The notes under the pieces are model-generated. The model saw only the letters and a list, made by a program, of their open reading frames with translations, searched no databases and was not told where the DNA came from. The position numbers and the translations under genes are program-made. 32,826 nucleotides of DNA, taken from an uncultured Clostridia bacterium (GTDB lineage Bacteria; Bacillota; Clostridia; Oscillospirales; Acutalibacteraceae). Positions 1 to 16,872 of the stretch are shown one piece after another (position 1 is the stretch's first letter; every line of letters starts with the position of its first letter). Location: the NCBI GenBank assembly GCA_944380795.1, contig CALWIS010000010.1, positions 1-32,826 on the forward strand. The letters run 5' to 3'.

Positions 1-20
1 GTTTGCTCTCCGGTGGGGCC
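1..20 (+). repeat. Right arm of a terminator-like hairpin, duplicated at 347-366
   Basis: The first 20 bases of the window repeat, base for base, the right half of the hairpin at 331-366. The left half would lie outside the window. Unlike the downstream copy, this one is not followed by a T-run, so it may be a bidirectional or decayed terminator, or the edge of a duplication that flanks the dispersed element at 53-274. Confidence 0.5.
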
Positions 21-52
21 TCAGCGTGTTAATAAAACCATAATGCTCGATC

Positions 53-274
53 AGTTCGCGTGGGAATAATTTTCAATGCGCAGTTGCTCTCCCGCGACAC
101 AAAAATTTTCGCCCCCCTTTTATAAAAGGGGGTAGGGGGTTCAGGGGGGCAACGCCCCTCCTGATCGCCCATCGCAATGGGCGAAACCCCTGTGCTCCCA
201 AAAACGCAGGAAAGGGTGAGAAAACAGCCCGGTGGGCTGTTTTCGAGGGGAAACCCACGTCTGGGGTTTCCCCT
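53..274 (+). repeat. Dispersed multi-hairpin element, copy 1
   Basis: This is one of three related intergenic elements; the others are 1016-1228 on the minus strand and 16652-16872 on the plus strand. It opens with a TTCGCGTGG box and a CCCGCGACACAAAA box. Five hairpins follow in fixed order: H1 at 113-132 (CCCCCTTTT/AAAAGGGGG), H2 at 142-163 (imperfect), H3 at 165-184 (TCGCCCAT, loop CGCA, ATGGGCGA), H4 at 220-244 (11-bp stem, loop GGT) and H5 at 247-273 (GGGGAAACCC/GGGTTTCCCC). Between H3 and H4 lies the conserved ACGCAGGAA stretch. Stems change between copies while pairing is kept. Short open frames across it are not convincing genes. Confidence 0.8.
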
Positions 275-330
275 TAAAACATATCACTTTTATACAACTG
301 TCCATACAGAAAACTTTTCTACAGACTGAA

Positions 331-374
331 GCCCCATCGGAGAGCGGTTTGCTCTCCGGTGGGGCCTTTGTTTT
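331..374 (+). terminator. Rho-independent terminator
   Basis: The left arm GCCCCATCGGAGAGC and right arm GCTCTCCGGTGGGGC pair with one G-T wobble around a GGTTT loop, followed by CTTTGTTTT. It reads on the plus strand, toward the converging ribbon-helix-helix gene at 385-540, and would end any transcript coming from left of the window through copy 1 of the dispersed element. Confidence 0.75.
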
Positions 375-384
375 GCCAAAAGGG

Positions 385-540
385 TTATTCCTGTTTTTGT
401 GAAAGGGACTTAAGATGCTCTTTCAGTACCAGATTGATATATTGAGAAAGGGAACGGTCAGCATCTTCCGCCAGAATTTTTAATTTCTCTACCATATCCT
501 CATCTAACGTGATACTGACTTTTTTCTTTAGCGGCTTCAT
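385..540 (-). CDS. Ribbon-helix-helix (CopG/Arc-type) DNA-binding protein
   Basis: This 51-residue protein begins MKPLKKKVSITLDEDMVEKL. The pattern is that of ribbon-helix-helix regulators: a short beta strand with alternating hydrophobic residues (KVSITLD, about 7-13), helix A (EDMVEKLKILAEDA) and helix B after the RSLSQYINLVLKEHL turn. Such proteins dimerise and bind DNA through the paired strands, and are common as antitoxins and plasmid copy-control repressors. The start ATG has GGAG nine bases upstream. A TATAAT -10 lies at 574-579, but no good -35 is visible. The gene is AT-rich compared with its neighbours and is divergent from the 83-residue gene at 657-908. No toxin gene follows it in the same operon, so an antitoxin role is only a possibility; a self-regulating repressor is the safer reading. 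Confidence 0.8.
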   Translation of the reverse strand: MKPLKKKVSITLDEDMVEKLKILAEDADRSLSQYINLVLKEHLKSLSQKQE

Positions 541-1015: not shown

Positions 1016-1228
1016 GGGGAAACCCCAAACGTGGGTTTCCCCTGGAAAACTGTCCACTGGACAGTTTTCCACCCCTTCCTGCGTTTTGGAAGCATAAGGA
1101 GTTCCGCTCTCTGCGGAGAGCGGCCAAAGGCCCTGCCTTTGGAATCCGCGATTTTTTGAAAAAAATCGAGTAAAACTTTTGTGTCGCGGGAAAGCAAGAG
1201 CAAATGGGAAACTGCTTCCACGCGAACT
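1016..1228 (-). repeat. Dispersed multi-hairpin element, copy 2
   Basis: Read on the minus strand, the element opens with AGTTCGCGTGG, then CCCGCGACACAAAA, and then H1 (1150-1167, GATTTTTT/AAAAAATC), H2 (1124-1142, CCAAAGGC/GCCTTTGG), H3 (1104-1123, identical to copy 3, loop CGCA), H4 (1044-1070, 12-bp stem GGAAAACTGTCC/GGACAGTTTTCC, loop AGT) and H5 (1016-1039). It lies between the trpS stop and the terminator at 921-960, so it is probably transcribed as the trpS 3' untranslated region. In H4 both arms differ from copies 1 and 3 in a compensating way. Confidence 0.8.
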
Positions 1229-16577: not shown

Positions 16578-16607
16578 ATAAGAAAAAGGGCCCTTTTAAG
16601 GCCCTTT
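16578..16607 (-). terminator. Terminator for the malL transcript
   Basis: On the minus strand AAAGGGCC pairs with GGCCCTTT and is followed by TTCTTATTTTT. It stands downstream of malL and element copy 3 and upstream of the portal gene. Confidence 0.75.
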
Positions 16608-16651
16608 CAGACTGTCGATAAACCCACAAGGCTAAGAAAATTGCACAAATT

Positions 16652-16872
16652 AGCTCGCGTGGACACAATTAAAAATTGGTACAGGCCTTCTCGCGACGTA
16701 AAAATTTTCGTCCACCTTTTATAAAAGGTGGCAGGAAATCCAAAAGGGCAGCGCCCTTTTGGCCGCTCTCCGCAGAGAGCGGAACCCTTTATGTTCTCAA
16801 AACGCAGGAAGGGGTGAGAAAACAGCCCAGTGGGCTGTTTTCGAGGGGAAACCCACGTCTGGGGTTTCCCTC
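16652..16872 (+). repeat. Dispersed multi-hairpin element, copy 3
   Basis: Boxes AGCTCGCGTGG and TCGCGACGTAAAA open the element, then H1 (16712-16731, CCACCTTTT/AAAAGGTGG), H2 (16740-16762, CCAAAAGGGC/GCCCTTTTGG), H3 (16763-16782, CCGCTCTC, loop CGCA, GAGAGCGG), H4 (16818-16842, 11-bp stem, loop AGT) and H5 (16845-16870). It lies between malL and its terminator but points against malL transcription. H1 differs from copy 1 by paired changes (CCACC/GGTGG against CCCCC/GGGGG). Confidence 0.8.

Follow-up and report, generated by a model that had tools for sequence, protein, structure and literature searches.

A dispersed six-hairpin element of Oscillospirales with a conserved structured core, probably mobilised in one genus by an IS1182-family transposase that targets terminators

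REP/BIME sequences are intergenic hairpins present in many copies, palindromes of 20-40 bp tied to other transposases, and HEARO, the IscB-associated RNA, is a mobile, multicopy, structured RNA. The repeats bcr1-bcr18 of the Bacillus cereus group, according to the accessible portions of two reports (PMC3446304, PMC6542083), are dispersed sequences of 100-400 bp, some of them MITE-like, and some have a conserved secondary structure and are transcribed in UTRs. IS1272, a member of the IS1182 family, takes stem-loops as its targets, often transcription terminators, without primary sequence specificity; the accessible portions of its descriptions (PMC5678879, PMC4923244) state that it removes all or part of the target hairpin, by deletion or replacement, and leaves no duplication. 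Duplication of the stem-loop is given there just as possible pathway b of a model (PMC5678879), and in the excerpts of the open-access literature available to us it appears for IS1182 only as this possible pathway.

The element described here would share with IS1272 and IS1182, so far as the sections consulted describe them, both an IS1182-family transposase and a stem-loop target without primary sequence specificity. Unlike IS1272 as portrayed in those sections, it is associated with duplication of the whole hairpin, as seen at two loci (L075 and L085) by comparison with empty sites, rather than with deletion or replacement, and the element is non-autonomous and has a conserved fold. From REP/BIME it differs by an ordered core of six hairpins and by DDE-type ends in part of one genus. 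The bcr repeats belong to another clade, their mobility is linked to TTTAT motifs, and terminator duplication is not described in the portions of the bcr reports consulted (PMC3446304, PMC6542083). Our overall reading, to which we assign a probability of roughly 0.7, is that of a non-autonomous, IS1182-mobilised, terminator-targeting element with a conserved structured core.

The window, meaning the whole stretch of 32,826 nucleotides analysed, is contig C10 of genome G000, a MAG of 2.6 Mb in 261 contigs, 86% complete. An initial annotation had described a dispersed element in three copies, and all three, at 53-274 (+), 1016-1228 (-) and 16652-16872 (+), were found again; their folding z-scores against 200 dinucleotide shuffles were -7.46, -6.85 and -8.08, with 0 of 200 shuffles as good in each case. 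The extent 53-274 holds for the body of copy 1, while the full-length element is longer, reaching from 22 to 328 with terminal inverted repeats. The features of the window are as follows.

1-21, + strand: left terminator hairpin, of which the contig start leaves only the 3' part; identical to 347-367
22-328, + strand: full-length element copy 1, 307 bp; inverted repeats at both ends
22-36, + strand: 5' terminal inverted repeat of copy 1, CAGCGTGTTAATAAA; 2 mismatches to the consensus CAGNNTGTCGATAAA
56-97, + strand: 5' stem domain, TCGCGTGG...CCCGCGA; six pairs, G-U variants in several of 22 copies
101-111, + strand: conserved linker AAAAATTTTCG; AAAGUUU box in other genera
113-132, + strand: hairpin H1, from alignments
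141-164, + strand: hairpin H2, from alignments
165-184, + strand: hairpin H3, loop CGCA, from alignments
186-217, + strand: hairpin H4, with internal conserved segment AAACGCAGG; predicted on alignment A2 and outside the 40 pairs counted in alignment A6
220-244, + strand: hairpin H5, three-base loop, from alignments
247-273, + strand: hairpin H6, from alignments
314-328, + strand: 3' terminal inverted repeat of copy 1, CTTTTCTACAGACTG; 2 mismatches, on the - strand
329-367, + strand: right terminator hairpin with its T-tract kept (stem-loop 331-365); 21-nt direct repeat with 1-21
961-975, + strand: 3'-side terminal inverted repeat of copy 2, CAGCTTATCAAAAAA; adjoins a terminator-like hairpin at 931-960
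1016-1228, - strand: copy 2 element body, AT-rich H1 type; E 5.2e-72
16585-16607, + strand: terminator-like hairpin AAAGGGCCCTTTTAAGGCCCTTT abutting copy 3
16608-16622, + strand: 5' terminal inverted repeat of copy 3, CAGACTGTCGATAAA; exact
16652-16872, + strand: copy 3 element body; E 3.0e-79

Read 5' to 3', the element is a stem domain, a linker (AAAATTTTCG), and the hairpins H1, H2, H3, H4, H5 and H6, so that the five hairpins first claimed become six plus a 5' stem domain. The boxes TCGCG...CGCGA, proposed earlier as an outer stem, close the 5' domain alone (56-63 with 91-97) and not the whole element. H1, H2, H3, H5 and H6 come as sequence alleles in which pairing is kept; H4 is a long hairpin with the conserved segment. 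The individual stems had been quoted correctly: CCCCC/GGGGG, CCACC/GGTGG and an AT-rich type for H1; TCGCCCAT/ATGGGCGA against CCGCTCTC/GAGAGCGG for H3, both with loop CGCA; and, under the name H4, ACAGCCC/GGGCTGT against ACTGTCC/GGACAGT with three-base loops. The hairpin remnant at 1-21 is followed by CAG, with no T-tract. Copies 2 and 3 have one recognisable repeat and one hairpin each: no 5' terminal repeat is recognisable in copy 2, and no right-hand copy of the hairpin at 16585-16607 was seen beside copy 3.

The window also holds a T-box leader (RF00230, 102.3 bits) at 2363-2605 on the minus strand, outside the element, and the Rfam search placed a purine riboswitch in locus L060, likewise outside the element. 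Several contigs of the genome (C10, C16, C86, C122, C247 and others) end inside or beside element copies, and the 3' flank of one copy is common to C16 and C10.

A covariance model built from 22 copies of the window's own genome returned 100 matches there, of which 75, including two overlapping ones, reach E<1e-14, as well as matches in relatives, which confirms a dispersed family beyond the three copies. At least two types can be told apart by H6 in this genome (type I, GGGGAAACCCACGTCTGGGGTTTCCCC; type II, GGGCCCCTTTTGCAAGAAAAAAGGGGCCC), and two types by H1. Model R1 matched 17 of the 60 genomes searched, the window's own included, several of them by one weak or short match each; all five genomes of the genus were among them, and many matches fell in other genera (genomes G015, G021, G034 and G028). 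Model R2, made from 46 cores spanning the AAAGUUU box and H1 to H6, matched 72 of 394 genomes of the order, in 42 of the 168 genera sampled, and only 2 of 299 genomes in a phylum-wide draw, one of these being the window's own; in both surveys a cap applied to the number scored in each genome. Carriers named by one pattern scan for the element include Oscillospiraceae MAGs, Clostridia MAGs, Candidatus Gallacutalibacter pullistercoris, Candidatus Howiella intestinavium and Firmicutes bacterium CAG:94, and by these names the carrier order is Oscillospirales. Phage and viral contigs searched with the exact element pattern gave no match, nor did phage records and plasmids searched for the element. 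The family of dispersed elements is real and order-wide.

That the element falls in no named RNA class, as had been supposed, holds for Rfam 15: there was no match on the element at the gathering threshold, and relaxed thresholds gave only hits far below gathering scores. Nor was the element recognised in the open-access literature as available to us in excerpt, PMC11109978 included. No gene is common to many of the loci L001-L125 beside the element; the largest cluster of ORFs, from 28 loci, seems to consist of reading frames that run through the element, and the next real cluster comprises 4 loci, of which two are one and the same place. An RNA-guided or ribozyme element, such as an IscB/TnpB guide RNA or a group II intron remnant, would also be multihairpin, dispersed and strand-specific, but we consider this origin very improbable: the lack of an Rfam 15 match and, among loci L001-L125, of a gene recurring beside many copies speaks against it and also separates the element from HEARO, and in part of the genus IS1182 explains the ends.

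In the window's genus the element body is extended on both sides to inverted repeats, CAGNNTGTCGATAAA...TTTTTCGACANNCTG, and full-length copies measure about 305-330 bp; six of the seven copies measured are 307-327 bp, and the seventh, L058, is 429 bp with an insert. Like a MITE, the element is short and has no transposase gene, the clustered ORFs looking like frames of the element. An exact search finds CAGNNTGTCGANAAA at 10 sites in the window's own genome, 8 of which are ends of seven element copies; one of the remaining sites is an insertion sequence end and one lies inside an apparent gene. Both terminal repeats, called at no more than 4 mismatches each against a consensus drawn from the same copies, are kept in 8 of the 40 type-I copies examined in the genus (29 from the own genome and 11 from sister genomes), and these 8 are the copies with MITE-like ends, as on an autonomous element; the other 32 do not show both recognisable ends.

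Outside the terminal repeats stands a locus-specific hairpin as a direct duplicate, for example AAGCCACCTGCTTACTAAAGCAGGTGGCTT, which flanks L075 on both sides. Among the seven copies with enough flank, six have a direct repeat of 9-30 nt at the same locus and the seventh one of 5 nt, against a maximum of 7 nt in cross-locus controls. The empty site of L075 in sister species G003 and that of L085 in sister species G001 each contain the hairpin once, without the element, so that the target site duplication of a MITE here takes the form of a whole hairpin doubled, with two empty sites. A T-tract follows the right hairpin copy; in a terminator scan the right hairpin was called at L085 and in the window and the left was not, the window's left hairpin being truncated. 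From these sequence comparisons, mobility of this part of the family with target duplication is well supported. The two flanks paired better with each other than permuted partners did at 37 loci in the genus (16 of 5000 permutations reached so low a value) and at 24 loci in other genera (1 of 5000), and no better than permuted ones at 16 type II loci (2490 of 5000); per locus just 4 of 77 fall in the best 5%, and the terminal repeats explain part of the signal.

A candidate source of the transposase was found on two other contigs of the same genome. On C213 the repeat CAGCCTGTCGAAAAAGG opens a region with a frame matching NF033551 and PF05598; the match to NF033551 (E 2.3e-39, 135.6 bits) is partial and under the cut-off of 270, and the frame breaks near the contig end. 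On contig C85 lie the C-terminal portion of an IS1182 transposase, covering model positions 346-488, and the right end TTTTTCTACAAGCTG. Because the outer flanks on both contigs have the same 23-nt hairpin, AACAGCCGCTTTTAGCGGCTGTC, the two pieces are probably one insertion. An intact transposase was not seen in the own genome. One of the four full-length IS1182 elements of relatives that were tested bears the element's ends: in G049, from another family of the order, a transposase of 512 aa (385 bits to NF033551, above the cut-off) lies between these ends, with 0 and 1 mismatch, and the 35-nt hairpin is duplicated, its copies differing at two loop positions. The other three (L229, L231 and L232) have other ends and no direct repeat of at least 12 nt. 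No element match was found in G049 despite its intact IS1182, and NF033551 at E<=1e-10 found nothing in G002-G004, G015, G021 or G034.

The ends are different in type II copies of the own genome and in copies from other genera. L097, which is of type II, starts at TTCGCG, and the corresponding empty site in G002, the one type II site tested, reveals no duplication. Seven G021 copies that were viewed start at or near AAAAGTTTT and end past a seventh hairpin without inverted repeats, so that IS1182-like ends are absent from them; about four of six G034 copies lie between GGGGCTGTCGCA-like and TGCGACAGCCCC-like arms, and several G015 copies follow short tandem units. Because these copies have other ends, the IS1182 ends explain movement in part of one genus only. 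The core is the conserved unit of the family.

Further repeats were seen around and within the copies. At L162 and L176 tandem units of about 35 nt (AACTACAATCTGTTGCCAARGAGGCAA), up to three in view, stand directly upstream of the core. At L081 (G034:C22) the core stands between two arms, and immediately upstream is a solo palindrome, GAGGCTGTCGCAAAATAATTGCGACAGCCTC, that resembles them, as though such a hairpin had received the core in its loop. At L337 (G003:C3, after 71873) an unrelated repeat, CCCTCCGTCACGGCTTATGCCGTGCCACCTCCCTC..., stands at a site that is taken by a type II copy in G000 and is empty in G002; the site may be an insertion hot spot. A second small module of about 58 nt, consisting of TCGCCTGCCGGCTCGGTCGG and a varying hairpin, is nested in the element, in the H2 loop or near H1 and in either orientation, at L028, L052, L053, L058, L062, L090 and L336. 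Allowing up to 2 mismatches, the 20-mer TCGCCTGCCGGCTCGGTCGG occurs 17 times in G000, 18 times in G001, 7 times in G003 and 11 times in G004, and it is absent from G015 and G021.

Divergent cores from several genera were aligned by MAFFT without fitting to structure (alignment A6); of 55 copies picked by hand, 54 were anchored and 46 used, and 8 copies were excluded because they held an insert, were truncated or short, or were redundant. In these 46 cores 96.0% of cells pair, and double-sided changes occur at 32 of the 40 pairs counted, H4 lying outside the 40. The covariation score is 0.533, against 0.214 for column shuffles, which ignore relatedness (0 of 500 as high), and against at most 0.168 for slid controls, over which the structure is favoured by its derivation from the same alignment. 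Covariation beyond both kinds of control is what a structured RNA element should show. Unpaired boxes and loops are conserved over the same cores across genera.

Mismatches in strand-neutral stems distinguish the two strands. Under a strict filter G·T and A·C mismatches number 49 and 14 on one strand, in 194 distinct sequences (a few weak or antisense matches included) and 429 distinct hairpins; the four settings of this filter gave 49/14, 34/8, 23/6 and 31/11, and a looser, noisy first filter 73 against 48. In orthologous copies the counts are 69 and 38 (19 pairs, each counted in both directions), and with the other strand folded they point in the same direction, 71 against 48. Because G·T exceeds A·C on one strand, the fold is kept as a single strand, most simply as RNA. 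Among same-site copies in sister species (20 pairs, not all independent), changed sites amount to 188 of 2776 paired and 153 of 1336 unpaired positions. The suggestion of the initial annotation that paired change points to selection on the fold thus gains support from the 32 doubly changed pairs in 46 cores, the shuffles and the excess of G·T over A·C.

Hairpins could instead matter only as single-stranded or cruciform DNA, in replication or transposition, as might be expected from a transposase group that targets stem-loops; single-stranded DNA also tolerates G·T, and 31 of 74 copies are opposite to the upstream gene. We regard such a DNA-level element as unlikely. A cruciform is strand-symmetric, yet G·T exceeds A·C; bodies without ends still fold and match the model; in vertically inherited copies conservation is higher in the stems than elsewhere; and unpaired boxes and loops are conserved across genera. 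We favour the view that selection maintains the core fold as a single strand, most likely as plus-strand RNA, and from the sequence evidence the RNA nature of the core appears likely.

Some paired differences have a simpler source. Copies L299 and L321 differ at 12 double-changed pairs though their upstream flanks are 98.7% identical, L296 and L308 show 4 double changes by hairpin exchange with upstream flanks 96.5% identical, and in L336 modules are replaced. Part of the paired variation is, to judge from these alleles, exchange of whole hairpins between copies, and the exchange in L299/L321 and L296/L308 counts against stepwise compensation. Single stem changes in orthologous copies, moreover, disrupt the pair in 65 cases and preserve it in 55, a slight excess of disruption. 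Such swaps and broken pairs are what would be seen if the fold were under no selection at all, with palindrome-templated repair and gene conversion keeping arms complementary and swapping hairpins. That account is, in our estimate, somewhat less probable even than a DNA-level role: repair and conversion are strand-symmetric, whereas G·T and A·C are unequal; they do not account for conserved unpaired boxes and loops in 46 aligned cores, nor for a family present in 42 of 168 genera sampled of the order. The earlier phrase that the variation is not mere copying therefore stands as regards selection on the fold, and fails in that the family spreads by transposition, as the empty sites indicate, and hairpins are swapped whole.

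For 85 copies the neighbouring genes gave no clear sense bias: the upstream gene is on the same strand as the element in 43 of 74 cases and the downstream gene on the element's strand in 24 of 70. Scans of window positions 1-420 and of the L085 region found no promoter-like site in the former and, near L085, only one, on the other strand and outside the element. A separate small RNA gene, driven by a promoter of its own, acting in trans and multicopy by chance, would agree with a fold and unpaired boxes conserved across the order. It is nonetheless improbable, given that no promoter-like site lies in the element in either scanned region and that there are tens of copies with differing ends and neighbours.

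The reading we prefer takes as its base the sequence-level record of copies, ends, hairpin duplication, empty sites, an IS1182 with the same ends and duplication, covariation and G·T excess. In the window's genus, the element with CAGNNTGTCGATAAA ends would be moved in trans by an IS1182-family DDE transposase, which would take an intrinsic-terminator stem-loop as target and join the element at the 5' feet of the stem-loop; joining there would therefore duplicate the whole hairpin, about 23-35 bp. The left hairpin would lose its T-tract and the right hairpin keep it. With a T-tract only at the right, transcripts of the upstream gene should continue across the element and end at the right hairpin, and so the insertion would be nearly harmless. 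The element would become a 3'-UTR extension of the upstream gene, carrying a six-hairpin core with conserved unpaired boxes that is preserved as a single-strand fold. The core most likely acts as RNA, shielding 3' ends or serving as a protein-binding platform. This scheme predicts read-through at the left hairpin and RNA on one strand.

These loci appear to offer natural cases, complete with empty sites, of whole-stem-loop duplication, earlier only a possible pathway for IS1182-type transposition, and thus a mobile element that would rebuild the terminator it hits. They also contribute a candidate structured RNA of gut bacteria, multicopy and spread across an order, that lies outside all Rfam models. 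More tentatively, and with the odds somewhat against it, the core may be a selfish or domesticated structured RNA of the whole order, travelling on ends borrowed from different mobile elements, IS1182 here. If that is true, each landing would put the RNA in a transcribed 3' UTR, with a terminator rebuilt behind it.
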